From: Anas platyrhynchos
Lineage: Eukaryota > Chordata > Aves > Anseriformes > Anatidae
Reading direction: 5' to 3'
Assembly (NCBI RefSeq): GCF_047663525.1
Contig: NC_092613.1
Location: 3,249,501 to 3,313,500, forward strand
DNA length: 64,000 nucleotides
The notes below the pieces were generated by a model. It made no database searches, was not told where the DNA came from, and saw only the letters and a program-made list of their open reading frames with translations. Shown piece by piece: positions 30,551 through 64,000 of the stretch; the first letter of the stretch is position 1; every line of letters starts with the position of its first letter. A program made the translations under genes and the position numbers.

Positions 30551-32560
30551 AACCACCCCCAAAGCTGTATAAAACCTGCCCCCAGCCCCCAGATCCAAAC
30601 TCTGGGGCGCCAGGATGCAGCCGAAGTGGCTCTGATGCAGACGGACGCAGAGGAGCAGAAAGGGAGGAAAGAGAGGATGGAAGAGGAGCGAACCCAGGCA
30701 AACCCCGGCCCCTCGCCTCGCCATCCCCGCAGCAGGGAAGGGAGCCGGGAGCTCTGCGAATCTGAGCTGGGGGCACGGCGGCGCTCAGCCCTGCGGGGCT
30801 GCTCCGGGGGCAGACACAGACACAGAGGACATGGAGCCGTGGGTCTGGCCTCAGAGCCCTGCCTGCCCCGGTGCCGTGCCTCGGGGTCAGCATCTTCCCT
30901 GCCCCAGCCTGCCCAGGCCTCAGCCGCAGCCCCGAGGAGGGAAAGGCCGCAGACAGCCTCACGCGGCCTGCAAAGGGGAAAAAACCCAATGGGTGTCTGA
31001 AAGACTGAGGGCAGAGGTTTATCCCCCTGCCTGGGACTTTGAGCTGCTCCCAGGGGCTGGGGTTGAGGCTTGGAATCAAGGAAGGGCCCTGGGCGCTTCC
31101 TGTAGCCCGAAGACCCCGGGGAGCAGCAAGCAGGGAGGCCCAGACCCCCGCAGCCCCTGCCCGGGCACGGAGCGGGTTTGTGCCCGCAGCCACGGCAGGG
31201 GGATCGGGGCGTCCCGGGCTGGGGGGGCACCGGGATTAGAGGGTTAACGGAGCGGGTGGGAGGGCGCACGTGACCCAAGCGGTGCAGTGGGCTGGGGTGG
31301 GTGGGTGTGAGTGTGCTGGGGGTGCTGGGCGAGCCCTCCCTTCCAGCCCCAACCCCCCCCCCCCCCCCCCAGCCCCGCACAAAATCCGCTCCCCGCGGCC
31401 GCCCCGGCCCCTCCAACCTGCAGCATGGAGGCGAGGGGCTGCCCGGCCTTCCCCACCGGCCGCCGGGCCGGGCCCCCCCCGGGGCCACCGCGGACCCCCG
31501 GCCCCTTCGTGGCCGGGCAGCCAGGACCCCCCCGGCACCCGCCGCCGCTCAGCCCCCACTGCCCGCCGGACAAGGCAGAGCCCCGGTATTTGGGTGCCAC
31601 CAGCCCGGGGCCCCTCGCCGTGGCCGTCAGTGGGAAGCCCTTCTACCCGGCCGGGGCTGCAGGTACCGGGAGCTGCGGGGTGGAGGTGGGAGCCGGGGCC
31701 GGTACTCCCCCAGCCCTTTTCTTTCCTCTTTTCTGCCCCCGCACGGAGCCCGATCCTGCCGTCGGCCCCGGGGATGCGCCGTGCGGGCTGCCCTCAGTGC
31801 CTCCGGGCCCCCTTATCGCCGACACGCTCCCGCTGTCGCGACATGGCCCTGTTAGAGCACAGACCGCCACGGTCGGGCGGCCTCGACCCCGGCAAGCCCG
31901 AGGGGAGCGGGGATCCCGGCCAGGGCGGCGGGGCCGGGAGCGGGGAGAGTTCAAGCTCCGGGGATGGAAAAGCGGCCCCGTCCCTCGGGGGGGATGCGTC
32001 CGGCCGCCGCCCGGGCCCGGCCTCACCGGCAGCGCCCGGCGCCCGACGGCAGCTCCTGGGCCGGGAGCGGCGGGGTCCCGGGGGGTCCCGGCTCGGGGCC
32101 GCCGCCAGGCTCGGGCAGGACGCGGCGCTTCCCCCGGGCCCGCTCCTCTCCTCGCTCTTTCCCTCCCGGACGAGGCCGTCGGAGACCGCCGAGGGCTCCG
32201 GTTCATCCCGTCCCGCGGGCCTTTTATGTCCCCGTTCGCTTTAATAGAACCCCCCAAAAAAAAGGGGAAAAAAAAGGAAAAAAAGGAAAAAAGAAAAAAA
32301 AAGGCAGCACCGCAGTGTAATGGGAACCAGGTGGGGCTCGGCACAACAGGTAGAGAAAGCCACGGGGCACGGGGAGCCCCCACTGCCACCCCCCGGGCCG
32401 GGCCGTACCGGGGCCGCGCTTACCTGCTCCGGGTGCCGGCAGCCGCGTTCTCTCCCCCGGTTCCTGGGAGCCCTTCCCGTGCCCCGTCCCTTCACTAATG
32501 ATCCCTCCGAGTGCTCCTTTCCCCTCCCGGTTCACCCAATAATCGTGCAGCTGTTCCCCA
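30550..32560 (+). promoter_or_regulatory. ALX3: ALX3 CpG island and promoter region
   Basis: A dense CpG, very GC-rich stretch surrounds ALX3 exon 1 and runs into intron 1. Candidate elements are a TATAAAA at 30568-30574 and a palindromic E-box (CACGTG) at 31267-31272, 153 bp upstream of the ATG. A run of 18 C sits at 31353-31370. The transcription start cannot be fixed from sequence; the TATA box would imply a long 5' UTR of about 0.8 kb, so a start nearer the E-box is equally possible. Confidence 0.6.
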
Positions 32561-35500
32561 GCTGCTGGCTTCCCCAGCGCCGCAAAATTGGTCAGGGGGT
32601 GTTGGTTTGGGGGGTATCTGTGTCTTCCCTTTTTCCCATCCTCTTTGTCCCCCTGCGACTCTGTTTATTTAGCTACACGCCTGTATCCTGCTCCCTTCCT
32701 GCCTTCTCCTTTTTGGCCATTTATTTATTTGTCTCCAATGCTGGAACCCGCTGGACACTTGGAAATGCGGTGCCTTTGGAAAGGGGAAAAACCCCGAACC
32801 CGACGCATTTATCAGACCGGTTTGTGCAGCGGATTTTTTTTTACTTTGTTTTTCCTGATTTTCAGTTGTTTTTTTTTTTTTTTTTTTTTTCCGCCTTCGC
32901 TCTGCTCCTTGGTGGGGCTTGTTTTTTATCACTAAACCCCCTGGCCCAGCTCTAGCCCGGGCTCAGCCCGGCCGAGCCCTTTGAAAGACAAAGCCGGGAG
33001 GAAGCGGCAGCTCGGCCTCATCCCTTCACCGTTACCCGCCGCCGGGGCATGGACACAGGTCGGTACCGAGAGGGAAGGGGAGCAGTCGCCCCCCCCAAAA
33101 TCCCGCCCCAAGATAACATTTTCCCGTTAATTCAAAGCAGATGCACCTCGACTCTTGTCTGTGCGCAGTAACCCCCAAATTGCCTTAATTATGAAACAAC
33201 CAAAAATCAAAAAGGAAAGTCCAGAAAAGGCCGCTCCGGGGGCTGGTTGCGGGGGAGCACAGAGCCCCTCGAGGGTGTGCGGGGACCCCACTCCGCTGAG
33301 ATGTGACGGTAACGGGCCAGGAAGGAGGATCTGTCCCCAAGGAGGTGATTTCCCCCTCGCCGGCCCCAAGCGCTGCGCCGTGCCCAGCACCCAGCGGTGG
33401 GCCGCATCCTGCCCATCTCCAGGGCTGAGCCCACCGGGAGGGCTTCTGGCCTCTACCTGCTGCCAGCCCAAGTCCCTGGAGGTGGAAGTAGTTGGGTGGG
33501 GGCAAAAGAATGGATTTCAGTTCATCTCCTGTCCGGGTAAAGCCCCTGTGTGTCCCCTGCGACTGCTGGGGGACCAGGTCCCCATCACCAGTTCTGCTCC
33601 TCAGGGGACCCCGCAGCACCAGATCCTGGCCAGAGCCGCTCAGACTCTGAGCTCTGCATGTCCCTCCATGGGGACAAGCACCCCTCCCTGGGGGACAAAG
33701 GCAGTCGTGGTGCCTCTGAAACACTGGCAGGGATTTGGCTCCTGGAGTCCATTCTGTGAGACTCCCCACAGGCCAAGCAGCAGTGCGGGGCGGGGGGGAA
33801 CCCCAACTTATTGCTCTGGCTCCTGTCGTGCAGGAGGGAGGGGAAAGGAGCAAAGAGGGTGGGGTTTTTTGTTTGTTTGGTTTTTACTCCTTTTTGAATT
33901 GTTTCCTGAGAGTTACGGCTGAAGGAAATGTAGTACCAGCAGCAGGCAGAGGCTTTTTGGGGTGCGCTGTGCCTGTCCCACCTTGAACCGAGCTGAGCCA
34001 TAGGACTCTGGATGTGGCCCAGGCTCTGTAGCTCCAATGGCTCTGCCCCAGGAGGAGGCAGCAGCCTGTGCAGGAAGGGAGCAGGGCGAGCTGAGCAAAG
34101 CTCGGCCAGGAAGGTGAACCCTCACTCGCCTGCCTCTGCCCCGCCGCACACCCTGTACCCATCAGAGCAGCTCCTGAGAGGCGCCCCAAGTGCGGGTCCT
34201 GCGGTGCCGAGCACCCACCAAGCTGTCCCCTGGCACCCTTGGGGAGCCAGCCCCCCGCTCCCCCAGGGCGAGGGCTTTGCTCTCCACGCTCCCTGCCATG
34301 ACTTTGACCCAGACGGAGCCCCTTTCCCCTGGAGCTGCACCCACACAACTCATGGGGTGATGCGGAATGCACCCAAAATGCAGTCTTCATCCTCTCCCCG
34401 CAGGAACGGGGGGCTCCTTGCGTTAACCAACCCGCCTTGTGACTCTCCCCTCCCAGGTGGTGAGAAGGGATGCAAAGGCGAGTACCAGGTGGTGCCCGCA
34501 GCCTGCCGAGCCCCCAGCAAAGCCCCGGGACAGCTGGGCTGCATGCTGGCAGCACCCCTGGGCAGCCTGCGGGAGCACCCAGCTCCCCCGCTGCCCGAGT
34601 CCCTGCCGCTGGGCAGGAGCAAGAGCAAGAAGCGGAGGAACAGGACAACCTTCAGCACTTTCCAGCTGGAGGAGCTGGAGAAGGTTTTCCAGAAGACGCA
34701 CTACCCCGACGTCTACTCTCGGGAGCAGCTGGCGCTGCGGACGGACCTGACCGAGGCCAGGGTGCAGGTACGGCTCGGGGCTCTCGGCATCTTGCTAAGG
34801 GGTCGTGCCAGGCAGGGCTGGAGGACACTTTCCTCTCCTGCGCAGCAGAGCTTGTGGAGGTGATGCTGAGTGAGGGGCTGGTGCTTCCTGGGGGATTGGG
34901 CCAAGCCCCAGGGAGGAAATCCCAGCCCTGGTGCTCGCTGCGCCCACCATCACAGTGGTGCCAAGTGCCAGCTGCCTCACTGCACCTCTTCCTTTGTCCC
35001 CTCCAAGGGACAGCAGAAGTTAAAATTTGGGAGGCTGCTGCCAGCACCCCCCAGCCTCCTCGTACCCTGTGCCCCACCAAACACCCTCCTAACACCCCCC
35101 TGGCCTCCCTCCCATCCCAACCCCAGATGAGCAGTGATGGAACATCCCCACACCCAGTCGAAACCCCCAGGGTGCAGCCTGGATGGGGCTGGGGATCCCA
35201 TCCCAGGACCCCAGTTTTGTGTTGTGGGGTGGGGTGAGGCCCTCCCTCCGTGCCCCAGCTCTGCCGGCACCGTACCAGCAGCAGGCCAGCAGGCTTTTCC
35301 AGAGGTGTTTCCACGTGGTGTGACACCCTGTGCTGGCCAAGGAGACTTGGAGGGGGGCCCGGTGGAGAGAGCAGCGCAGGCAGGGGGGGAACAGAGCAGG
35401 GCACGAGGCTGGGGGCGCGTGGCATGAGGCTGGGCACTGACTGCCCCGAGCCACCGAGCTCTGGGTACTGCCCCCTGCATGGGGCAGGGGCAGGGGACAC

Positions 35501-37156
35501 ACACCCCCAGCCAGCACATACCCAGCCTCACCGTGCCTGCCATGGCCTCTGAGAGAGCTGCAAGCCCTGATTTGGGGTGCATTTGGCTGAAATTAACAGT
35601 AGCACTGAGAGCTGTGTGGCAGGAATCCCAGCACCACGTCCTGCTCTCCGGGACATGTTGCTGTACCGGTACACTCCCAGCAGCACAGAGGGGGCGTGGG
35701 GTGGGGGGTCTTGTCCTGAAGAGCCTCCTGCAGCAAAACCTGGGGTAAATGAAGCCCAGAATCACAAGGGAGAGAAAATCACCACGCGTGGAGCAGGACT
35801 GCTTCTTTTCCAAGAGAGATGCGCCATTTCTGTTCTTTTGCTAGAGAAAACATCTGGGGAGCTTGAGGCTGTCCAGAGCTGCACACGAGGGAATTTTCTC
35901 CATTCCCCACCATGGAGAGAATCAGCAGGGGAAGGGGACGATGGGGGGGCACCACAGGCTACTCTTTCTGCCGGGACAGGCAGGGGTCTCCACGCCTCAG
36001 CCCCTCCTCTGCCCCCCAGGTCTGGTTCCAGAACCGACGGGCCAAGTGGCGGAAACGGGAACGCTATGGGAAAATCCAGGAGGTGAGAAACCCCACAGCT
36101 GCCCACAGCACCCCACTACCCCCATCGGTAACCCACAGTGCCCAGCTTTTGCCTCTGCCACGAGCTGTGTGGTTGTGCCCCCTTGCAAGGCACCTGGCCC
36201 CCACGGGAGAACAGGGAAGATGCAGCATCACATTCTGCTAGGGCAGGAAGAGGCTGCTTCATGGCCCTGCCATCTCCCCTGGAAATGTGCCCCTCCGGGA
36301 AGGTGTTGGGTTCCCCCCCATGCAAGGAAACCCCTTTTGCAGGGCTGGTGATCCATCATTCCCGTCAGCATCCCCTGATGGTGTGTGGTCACCCAGGGTC
36401 TCCCTCCTCTTCCTCATCTTCCTATAAATCCATCAGCATTTCATCCCTCCCTTTTCTGCAAAACTGCCTTATTTTCAAACACTGAAAAGCATAAAAATAG
36501 TTTAAAAAGCAGTTTTGTACACATCCTCCGTACTCTCCCATGATTGCCCTGCTTGGTGTAGGGGCTGCAGCACCACAAGGGAACAGGGCTGGGGAGGTGA
36601 CAGGGGGGTCAGCAGCACTGCGAACTGCACACCCTACAGGGCAGCGTTCTGCACAGATTTCCATCAGGATTAGCTCCCCCAAGCAATTAAAGTAAAGCAA
36701 CGGCAGCCCTTGCATTGCTTGCTCGCTGGGGGCAAGGGGGATTCAAGAGCTGGGGGGGGCGATGTGGTCCCGACCCTCATCTGCGCATACCCAGCCTCTC
36801 CCCCGCTTCACTTCGGGATTCCTGTTCCTTTTTTTCAGCTGCAGAGCAACCTCTGGCCAAGCTCCGGCCCTGGGAGCCCAACAGGGCCTTGCCTCGTGGC
36901 CCCCGAGAGCATCCCGTCCCCGTGCGTGTCTCCGTACCCCCACGCTCACAGCAACATGGCCAGCTTCATGGGCATCCCCACCTCTCCCAGCCACCCCCCC
37001 GGCATCAACAGTCTCTATTCCCTGCACGGCCTCCCCCCGACCCTCGGTGGCCACCCCTTCGAGCCCCCTCCAGAGAACGACTACAAATCGCCCGCCCTGG
37101 TGACGCTGCGGATGAAAGCCAAGGAGCCGGGCAGCCTGCTGGGCTGGACCACGTAA
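31425..37156 (+). CDS. ALX3: ALX3, paired-like homeobox transcription factor (4 exons)
   Basis: Exons: 31425-31662, 34457-34767, 36020-36082, 36839-37156 (stop TAA); introns are GT-AG and the phases fit, giving 309 residues (human about 343). The ATG has a strong Kozak context (A at -3, G at +4) and is the first ATG in frame. Residues 1-79 are Pro/Gly-rich and diverged. The homeodomain spans about 138-197, with [20 protein letters not shown] in helix 2-3 and [14 protein letters not shown] in helix 3 (Q50, N51), the aristaless-like Q50 class. Exon 4 carries the C-terminal OAR-type tail ([17 protein letters not shown]) and ends GWTT. ALX proteins bind palindromic TAAT sites and act in craniofacial mesenchyme and limb bud. 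ALX3 rather than ALX1/ALX4 follows from the YGKIQE junction, the FEP...DYKSP tail, and the neighbours STRIP1 and AHCYL1. There are no stops or frameshifts. The exon 3 3' end is unusual (see 36083-36145). Confidence 0.93.
31663..34456 (+). other. ALX3: ALX3 intron 1
   Basis: A 2.8 kb intron between GCAG|GTACC and TCCCAG|GTGGT. Its first 0.9 kb is still CpG island. It then holds A-rich low complexity (about 32253-32303) and a T-run (about 32867-32890). A TTAATTA homeodomain-type core sits near 33185. I see no additional coding exon in it. Confidence 0.75.
36083..36145 (+). other. ALX3: Relict of the ancestral ALX3 exon 3 end, probably now intronic
   Basis: Reading on in frame past the strong donor at 36083 (GAG|GTGAGA) gives 21 codons beginning VRNPTAAH and ending THSAQ. 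ALX family proteins have a homologous segment here, with RNPFTAAY in mammalian ALX3, ending in Gln exactly before the exon 4 Leu-Gln. Here the position after the final CAG (36146) reads CT, not GT, so the ancestral donor appears to be lost. A weaker phase-0 donor, TCG|GTAACC, lies at 36128 and would keep 15 of these codons. Which donor is used is inferred from consensus strength only. Confidence 0.7.
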
Positions 37157-38161
37157 CCCACCCCCACGGGACATGGACCCCTCGCCTGAGCCCCCCGCAG
37201 CCCCGGGACGCATCCTCCCTGCCTGCGTCCTCCCTCCCGAGGCACACGGCACCGCTCGGCACTGGGGGGTGGGAGCGGGGTCACCCCTGTCCCCCATGCA
37301 CCCCGATCACTGCCAGCTTCCCCCAGCCCAGCCCTCTCCATCGCGCTATCGGGGGGCAGCAAAAGGGTACCCCCGAAACACAGCCCACCCTGGCACCTCT
37401 CTGCCCCCCCCCCCCCCCGCAGACACAGAGAAGCAGCAAGTGGCTGGTGGGGGCCCAGCTGTCACTGCCTCTGCCATGGGGGCTGGTGCTGGGACCTGGA
37501 AATCAGCTTCAGAAAACCCTGAGGATACTCTGAGGCTGCAGCCCCCAGGGAAGGTGACCATGGGGGCAGGGATGGGAGATCCGCATGGCTGGGGGAGCTG
37601 GGTGGTTTTGGGGCACCATTCCCTTCTCCTGGGGAACTGGGCTGCTCTCTTCCCCAGCTTGGACACGTGGCCCCTAAACCAGCGCAGAGCTCCCCCCTTG
37701 CTCCCTCCATCCCAGTCTGGGTGCCCCAGCTGCAGCTGTCCTGGGAAGAAATGGTCACTTCGGGTGGGGGGGTGTCCAATTTTTGGAGTGGTCTCAGGCA
37801 TGGGGAGGGAGGGGACACGACTGAATTTCCCCATGCAGCTGATGTGCTTCATTTGCTCTGTGACAGGGGGGTCCCGGAGCAAACTGCAAAGCACCCCCAA
37901 ACACCTCTTCAAGGCAGTGCATCCGAGCTTACTTTCCAGACAGTAAACGCCCCGTCACCACGGCCAAATTGCCCAAATCAAGCCAACAACAGGTCTCTTC
38001 TTGCTCCTGCTGAACCCATCTTTAAAAGATGCTGTTATACCCCCTTGTGCCAAAAAAACAAACAAACAAAAAAAAAACAAAAAAAAACATATACCCGTGC
38101 TGGGGAAGGAAAGTGGAGACGCTCAGGAAGGGCCGAGCCTCACTGACCAGCCCAATCTGGG

Positions 38162-38192
<31 letters not shown>

Positions 38193-38365
38193 CAAGGTTT
38201 CCATGCAAAACCCTCCAAAACTCTCAGTACCCCAGGAGCACCATGGCCACAGCAGGTGGACAACCCCCAGGGGCCCCATACTGCACCCCCACTTCCTGCA
38301 GCCCCTGCCATCTGCAGGGATTTTGTTACTCATTTATAAACAATAAAACACACTTTAATAAGTTA
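37157..38365 (+). other. ALX3: ALX3 3' UTR (inferred extent)
   Basis: The region from the stop codon to just past the first + strand AATAAA at 38342-38347 is taken as the 3' UTR. It contains a run of 15 C (about 37404-37418), A-rich runs at about 38051-38090 and 38164-38192, and no open frame with recognisable homology. Its length is inferred from the poly(A) signal only. Confidence 0.5.
38342..38347 (+). terminator. ALX3: Candidate ALX3 poly(A) signal AATAAA
   Basis: This is the first canonical AATAAA on the + strand downstream of the ALX3 stop, in an AT-rich pocket within GC-rich surroundings. No cDNA is available to confirm it. Confidence 0.5.
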
Positions 38366-40178: not shown

Positions 40179-43100
40179 TCACTGCAGCAGCTCCTCCCAG
40201 GAGATGGGCCGGGAGAAGACCTCTCTCTCCAGCCACAGGTCGTAGTTGACCTGGAAATCCTCAGGCAGCTCCACGCGCTGGCCCAGCACGCTCTGCAGGC
40301 AGTTGTCCACAGGCAGGAAGTCAGGGTTGCTGTGCGCCCGGTCATAGCGGCGTGAGTTGAAGCGCTCAATGCTGGCACGCAGGGCACACTCCTCTGCCTG
40401 GAAATCCCAGGGCCGGGCATCCAGGTCTGGGCAGAGGGAAGAGGGTGTCAGAGGAGAGCTGGGGCACTTCAGGCAACCAACATCCCCCAGGATGAGATTT
40501 TTCAAATTCTTATAAAGAGCAGAATGCATAGGCACAGAGCAGGCAGCCACCGACATTTCCAACACTGCTGGCCACTGCCAGCTCCTTCCCCACAATGCCA
40601 TCACCCCCAAATCTTCCCAGACCTAGGGGCTGCAAAAGCCCTACGCAAAGGGACAGCTCTGGCACAAACACATCTCTGCATGGAGTGGAAGGACTGCGGG
40701 TAACAGGACATGTGGCAGCTGCAGCAGACATACCATTGCCATAAGCCCAGTCGTCATTGAGACGGTGCCGCACTTTCTGGTAGATGGCTGACATGGTCTT
40801 CATGTTGCTCTTCCTCCACTGCCGACCCAGGTACTTGGTCTGCACCTTAAGCAACTTCAGCACGTAGAGCTGCATCATGGCTTGCTTCACCTTCAGTGCC
40901 CGCTTCAGGATGGGCGCAGACTTGAACACCACCAGCATCTGAGGAACAGCCAGGGCCGGGTGGTGGCACAGCTGGGGACACCCGGGTGCCCCCTGCTGTA
41001 CAGGTGCCAGCCCCCTCCTCCAGCCCAGGCACACACACAAACCTTCCGTGCAGCATGCACGCACCCTCCCCAGAAGCCTCCCACTCCCCACCCACCTCCC
41101 TTCACTCTGCAGGCACCCCCATTGCTCTCCCACTCTCCAGCAAGTTCTGGGGTGTAGCCTGAGGGGCACCCCAAGGTACCCACCATCCTCCCACCCAATT
41201 TAGCCTGCCTGGGCTGAGCCCGAGGAGTCCCCAGCCCTCACCATAGTGCGAGAGTGCTTCCACTTGGTCAGCTTATTCAGGATGCGCAGGAGGTTTATGC
41301 AGGAGAAAAGGTTCCTCCAGCAAAACTGGTTGTTGTCTCCTGCCTCCTGCAGGAAAGCAGAGGCAGAAGTAAAGCATGAGATGGAAGCAGGGATGCAGAT
41401 ATGAAAAGGAGAGGCTGTGCTGGCCCCAGGACCGTTGCCCAAAGAGGCACGGCACAGCAAGCAGCCAAGAGATGCCTGCCAGCCCAAGGGTAGCCACAGA
41501 ACCCTCAGCAGTGCCAGAGGCAGAGCACAGAAGTGTTGAGGGTGCCAGGTCTGGGTGCTGGAGCCCTGCTGTCTCCCTGCGCCCACAAACCCCTCTGGAA
41601 AGCACTGCAGGTCACTGGGAGCCCGAAGAGAAGGGAGCAGCGTACCAGACTCTCCGCTGTCAGCTCCGGCAGCTCGTGCACCACACAGTATGGGTAGTCC
41701 AGGACAGAAATGCTGCAGAAAGGAGGGAGGGTGTCACACTGCTCCCATGGATCATACCCCATGCAGGGCTGTGCGGCAATGCAGTCCCACAACTGGGCCT
41801 GCCTGCACCCAAGCCCTGGCCAGGGAGGGAGAAAGCAAGCAGAACCCCCTTTCCCATACCCTCCTCCACTACCTGTTCTTGGCAGTGATGTAGGACATGA
41901 TGTTCTGGTTGAAAAACTTCAGGATGAGTGGGATACAGTTGGCAAACACCAGATGCTGGGCCATATACTCAAACTGCGGAGAAAGGCCAAGTGGGCAGGT
42001 GAATGCAGACCCATCCTGGGTGCTGCCCATCCCAGAAGCTTGGTGGCCAGACCCTGGCCCAGCTCACCTGGTAGATGTGATTCAGTTTGAAGTGCTTGAG
42101 CAGAAGGAGCAAGACAGCAGAAATGGCTTTGACGATGATCTCCTTGTGCCGATTGACATCCACTCCCAACTTCATGCTCTGCAGCACTGTGGTCCTGGGG
42201 CACACAGAGGAATCCTTGGGGCAGCGCCTGCACCCTACCAGCCCCAGAGGCTGCCCCAGAGGTGTCTGTGGGCAGCCTTGCCATTCCCTGGGCTATCAAG
42301 CAGGGAATGCAGTCAGGTTCTGCTACACCACACGATAGTCAGATTGCCCAGGAAGCATCAGCCCAGTCACAGCCCCCACGATCCTGCCTGGCTCCAAACC
42401 CTTCTTCCTTCCCTCCCCATTACAACTGAACTCCTCCGCTCGCCCTCCATGGTCACTCACGGCATCTCCTCTGGTAAGACATCTGCCAGGATGTTGATAG
42501 AGTCCGTCTTAGCTTTGGATGTGGGAGCTGCAGCAAGGAGGATCTTCAGGAGAGCAATCTGGGGAGAAAAGAGAGAGATGGAAAAGGGGGTGGGGGAAAC
42601 CAGCCACAAGCCACCCTTCCCCACCAGACAACAGAGGGACAGTGACACATATGTTCAGAGGGAAGAAAACGTGGGGACATGACTAGAAAAGGACAGAACA
42701 GCAGAGGCGAGAGGCTCCCAGATCGGCTCCAGGAGGATGGAGCAGAGCCGAGGAGACCCACAGTGCTCACCATGTACTGCGGCAGACTCGGCAGGAGGCC
42801 CTGGTACAGGATCTCTGCAGGGACTTGCTCTACTTCTTCTTCCCCCTGGTGCCAGGAGAGATCAGAAAACCTCACACCAGGAACAGCCACCAGTGCAAAG
42901 GGTCTGTTTCAGCCCTGGGTGTTCTGACCCTGAGGGCAGGATATCCCCGGCTCCTGCCCAACGTCCCCTCACATACCCCACTCTCTGTCCCTGGAGAAAT
43001 TGCTCCTCCTTCCCTAACGACCTGCAGAGCAAACCCAGCCCTCCCGACTGCTGAAACACCAGGCAGAAGCACATGCCCACAGCTCCAACTCTGGAGCCTC

Positions 43101-52835: not shown

Positions 52836-64000
<11,165 letters not shown>

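Follow-up and report, generated by a model that had tools for sequence, protein, structure and literature searches.

A gene at positions 31425 to 37156 on the forward strand of the window, as we term the whole 64,000 nt stretch of DNA that was analysed, is very probably an intact ALX3 orthologue from a duck, most likely the mallard, encoding a paired-class homeodomain transcription factor; its third exon has most likely been shortened in frame.

Structure of the gene

The gene extends exactly from its ATG, which lies in the context GCAGCATGG, to its stop codon, and is composed of four exons. Exon 1 (31425 to 31662, 238 nt) begins with the ATG and exon 2 (34457 to 34767, 311 nt) encodes the first part of the homeodomain, the rest of which is encoded by exon 3 (36020 to 36082, 63 nt); this ends with the residues KIQE at the donor GAG/GTGAGA, the slash marking the splice junction. 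Exon 4 (36839 to 37156, 318 nt including the stop) encodes a C terminus of the ALX3 type with a partial OAR motif. As the initial annotation had proposed, all four exons are open and splice-compatible: they join to form 930 nt encoding 309 aa with no internal stop codons, all three introns are bounded by GT and AG, and the exon junctions are in phase. Its description of the 5' end as very GC rich, with a long run of C residues before the ATG, was equally accurate, exon 1 being 80.3% GC and the run of 18 C residues (31353 to 31370, forward strand) lying 54 bases upstream of the start codon. The end of exon 1 and the start of intron 1 are also rich in CpG, the observed to expected ratio being 0.76 and 0.91 in the two halves of the stretch from 31501 to 32500, compared to 0.25 for the median of 128 stretches. 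Downstream of the gene, an AATAAA hexamer at 38342 to 38347 (forward strand) is, as a motif match only, a candidate polyadenylation signal. A second long homopolymer, of 15 C residues, is found at 37404 to 37418, beyond the ALX3 stop codon, and is likely to be another source of gaps in short-read assemblies. No matches to Rfam at gathering scores were detected over the window.

The least certain of the junctions is the end of exon 1, the predicted position of which is based mainly on alignment with human ALX3; the human ALX1, ALX3 and ALX4 sequences used throughout are provisional. The N-terminal region of the duck protein matches human ALX3 at 50 of 131 positions, and none of 500 shuffled sequences aligned as well. 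The putative donor, CAG/GTACCG, is weak, having a score of 0.57 on an approximate position matrix that is used for all the donors described here; 10.5% of the 2433 GT dinucleotides on the forward strand of the window score at least as highly. A stronger GT (scoring 3.23) is present 23 bases further on, at 31686, but was rejected despite its higher score because its phase does not fit that of the acceptor of exon 2. Alternative or non-productive splicing is possible between 31663 and 31686.

Genomic context and source of the sequence

The window is part of a 9.41 Mb contig (C27). The initial annotation had named the interval between STRIP1 and SLC6A17 as the place to look for ALX3 in birds, and the exons flanking the duck gene accord with this. 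To the right, in convergent orientation, is the C terminus of STRIP1, represented by an exon piece at 40182 to 40403 on the reverse strand that matches residues 764-837 of the 837 in PDB 7k36_I (E = 7.8e-44); further to the right on the same strand is an AHCYL1-like exon piece (61313 to 61456; PDB 3mtg_A, E = 6.8e-18). To the left, approximately 2.6 kb beyond the edge of the window, is an SLC6-family exon, also on the reverse strand, that we infer to be part of SLC6A17, the PDB search having named other SLC6 members. The available text of McGonnell et al. (2011, PMC3166657) places zebra finch Alx3 at the syntenic position, between Slc6a17 and Fam40a (STRIP1); the two bird genes are therefore alike in their interval, although one is from a songbird and the other from a duck.

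That the DNA originates from a bird, as had also been claimed, is indicated by the alpha-A globin of this genome. A search with residues 1-99 found PDB 3eok to be the best single-copy chain (208.4 bits), followed by 1faw and 1a4f, entries which we take to be the globins of duck, greylag goose and bar-headed goose, respectively. Six PDB entries outscore 3eok, because their chains hold two copies of the globin and the scores are summed. One contig of the assembly (C42) encodes mitochondrial proteins, and the assembly also has micro-contigs, a further avian marker. On the basis of the globin matches and the mitochondrial contig, a source other than a bird was rejected.

Relationship to ALX1 and ALX4

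The whole genome, which comprises 1.26 Gb in 42 contigs, was searched with part of the window ALX3 protein. With 150 of the 219 candidates scored, there were 103 matches, corresponding to the gene's own exons, ALX1 on contig C1, ALX4 on contig C5 and other homeobox genes. The stretches on C1 and C5 were translated, and it is from their sequence that we take them to be ALX1 and ALX4; as each has its own locus, the window gene must be a third member of the ALX family. Among the candidates scored, exon 4 has a strong match only in the window itself (229 bits, as opposed to 44 and 42 bits for the paralogues). A scan of viral contigs for relatives found 15 stretches matching the search pattern, none of which was confirmed. 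Clusters of homeobox matches were also observed at 124.42-124.53 Mb on C2, 23.17-23.24 Mb on C7, 0.32-0.46 Mb on C28 and 1.80-1.92 Mb on C36; these look like the four Hox clusters, with that on C36, a 6.3 Mb contig, probably being HoxC.

Comparison with the provisional human proteins gives the gene the identity that had originally been assigned to it. The part of the protein encoded by exon 4 shares 66 of 102 residues (64.7%) with human ALX3, compared to 33 of 103 with ALX1 and 34 of 102 with ALX4. This provisional human set can be considered usable, since duck ALX1 and ALX4 pair correctly with their namesakes, at 98 of 106 and 90 of 107 positions respectively. Furthermore, Q202 and the exon 3 start VWFQN in the provisional human ALX3 agree with two human variants, c.604C>T p.Q202X and c.595-2A>T, that are given in the available text of PMC7719703; the latter can be compared with the position of the intron that interrupts the homeodomain at VQ/VWFQ, which the duck gene has in common with human and mouse ALX3. 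In a tree of six sequences, the window gene and the provisional human ALX3 were joined with support values of 100/99, whilst those for the ALX4 pair were only 81/78; a warning from the program identified the pairs of ALX1 and ALX3 as long branches, such that their joins may be false. The branch leading to the window gene is 0.25 in length, compared to 0.036 and 0 for duck ALX1 and ALX4, and looser constraint on ALX3 is therefore possible.

It is barely credible, given these results, that the gene is merely a duplicate of ALX1 or ALX4, or that the DNA comes from an organism other than a bird. Nothing was found in favour of either proposal; assignment to ALX1 or ALX4 was rejected owing to their separate loci, the exon 4 identities and the tree, and is also opposed by the synteny, whilst a non-bird source is opposed by the presumed duck and goose globins and by the mitochondrial contig.

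Homeodomain and C terminus

The gene encodes a paired-class homeodomain of the ALX type, which scores 83.5 bits against Pfam PF00046; the top three matches of the protein in a search of PDB sequences were all ALX4 chains. Over 68 residues, the homeodomain differs at nine positions from the PDB ALX4 sequence and at eight from duck ALX1, but at only one from the provisional human ALX3, hence its description as nearly identical to that of mammalian ALX3 was correct. We infer that the duck gene is transcribed and spliced and that its product binds DNA: by analogy with the ALX proteins of mouse, human and fish, it most likely recognises paired TAAT sites as a dimer, and its role, which would overlap with those of ALX1 and ALX4, would most likely be in patterning the frontonasal neural-crest mesenchyme.

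The OAR tail, which had been thought to be preserved, is so only in part. The core, LRMKAKE, matches the Pfam OAR model, but the remainder does not, and the tail scores 11.9 bits, below the cut-off of 20.1; when the whole 309 aa protein was searched, no OAR match was reported at E <= 0.1. In duck ALX1 and ALX4, by contrast, the motif is canonical (39.0 and 41.3 bits, respectively), and none of the 16 OAR matches found in the genome at E <= 0.001 is on the contig containing the window. A full canonical OAR motif in duck ALX3 was consequently rejected, its score being under the cut-off. This is a point of likeness with human and mouse ALX3: the provisional human tail aligns well with that of the window gene and also has no match to the Pfam model. 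The weak motif is therefore probably a trait of ALX3, rather than a sign of decay in the duck, and the Pfam cut-off does not define ALX3.

A probable shortening of the third exon

Duck ALX1 and ALX4 resemble duck ALX3 in the end of the homeodomain, in having an intron before VWFQ and in their OAR-type ends, but differ in the length of exon 3, which is 129 nt in both paralogues and 63 nt in ALX3. The exon ends at CAG/GTATGG in ALX1 and CAG/GTGAGT in ALX4, as opposed to GAG/GTGAGA in ALX3. The provisional human ALX3 has 22 residues following KIQE that are absent from the duck model. An exon 3 carrying the post-homeodomain segment is not a feature of the duck gene model, a structural difference that does not define the orthologue.

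The 63 nt beyond the ALX3 donor (36083 to 36145, forward strand) are in frame and form 21 codons, one fewer than in the paralogues, of which the last is CAG; at the position of the old donor, immediately afterwards, there is a CT in place of GT. To judge from its alignments, this sequence is probably a decayed vestige of what was once the end of exon 3. At the protein level, the alignment score was reached by one of 2000 shuffled sequences for duck ALX4, by 184 of 2000 for duck ALX1 and by none of 2000 for the provisional human ALX3. The corresponding figures for DNA alignments with ALX4 and ALX1 were 53 and 167 of 2000, so the signal from the DNA is weak, and that from ALX1 poor. Seven residues of the segment are identical between duck ALX1 and ALX4, and six of these are gone from the aligned remnant.

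The current donor scores 5.79 on the approximate matrix, which ranks it within the highest 0.29% among 2433 GT dinucleotides on the forward strand of the window. It most likely arose inside the ancestral exon 3, which would have shortened the exon in frame and produced a protein without the 22-residue post-homeodomain segment kept in duck ALX1 and ALX4; the abandoned 22 codons and the old donor would then have decayed. The alternative that the gene is functional and exon 3 is not truly shortened, the ancestral segment being used through another donor or in another isoform, might be suggested by the in-frame 63 bases, with their partial likeness to the segment in ALX4 and human ALX3, and by the reading frame remaining open to 36241. 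Yet the old donor has become CT, each of the six other GT dinucleotides up to the end of the open frame scores -0.46 or less against 5.79, and the aligned remnant has lost all but one of the residues common to duck ALX1 and ALX4, making this alternative unlikely. Coding read-through past exon 3 was set aside because there is no usable donor. In favouring the shortened exon, we would suggest, at rather less than even confidence, that ALX3 in birds, or in the duck, is a remodelled protein in which a donor inside exon 3 has cut the post-homeodomain segment in frame, with the leftover decaying in the intron. We found no description of a short ALX3 exon 3 in the open-access literature.

The same observations could be read as indicating a gene that has recently been disabled, is open by chance and is heading for the loss claimed for chicken. 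The weak exon 1 donor, the lost segment of exon 3 and the branch longer than those of ALX1 and ALX4 are in keeping with such a history, to which the openness of exon 1 is little objection, stop codons being infrequent in sequence so rich in GC. However, it would have to accommodate 309 codons free of stops and frameshifts with in-phase junctions, a homeodomain with a single difference from the provisional human ALX3, the identity of 66 of 102 exon 4 positions across the split between birds and mammals, and the retention of the CpG-rich 5' end. We consider it very unlikely, and prefer to regard duck ALX3 as intact.

ALX3 in birds and its reported loss from chicken

The initial annotation considered the survival of ALX3 in birds to be surprising. 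The gene does survive in the duck, but the observation is not novel, as zebra finch Alx3 has been in print since 2011 (PMC3166657). The available text of the same study reports that Alx3 is absent from chicken, Anolis and Xenopus, with the claim for chicken resting on Build 2.1 of that genome; the main text of the paper mentions neither exons nor introns. A chick study from 2026 still refers to Alx3 as lost in chicken and, for that reason, could not examine it, according to its available text (PMC13249048). The absence from chicken may be real or may be the assembly artefact that the initial annotation had raised as an option. Alx3 is not named in the main text of the paper on the near-complete mallard and Silkie chicken genomes (PMC11745021), and there was nothing bearing on bird ALX3 in the available portions of PMC4916603 and PMC9167625. 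No paper on duck ALX3 was found in the open-access literature, though sequence databases may well annotate it. As a gene, duck ALX3 is ordinary, and does not amount to a discovery that birds keep ALX3.

Anseriforms are the sister group of galliforms. With this phylogeny, an open ALX3 in the duck, an anseriform, implies that a true loss in chicken would fall on the galliform side, after the two groups split, and so the duck copy narrows the period in which chickens could have lost the gene. An open ALX3 in the duck would also make duck and chick a natural pair for studying how the beak is patterned in the presence and absence of ALX3. The part worth following up is the probable shortening of exon 3, a datable and testable step of remodelling. 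If this change is common to birds, ALX3 would have been altered or relaxed before its outright loss in chicken, and one of the recurrent losses of Alx3 would have come about in steps.
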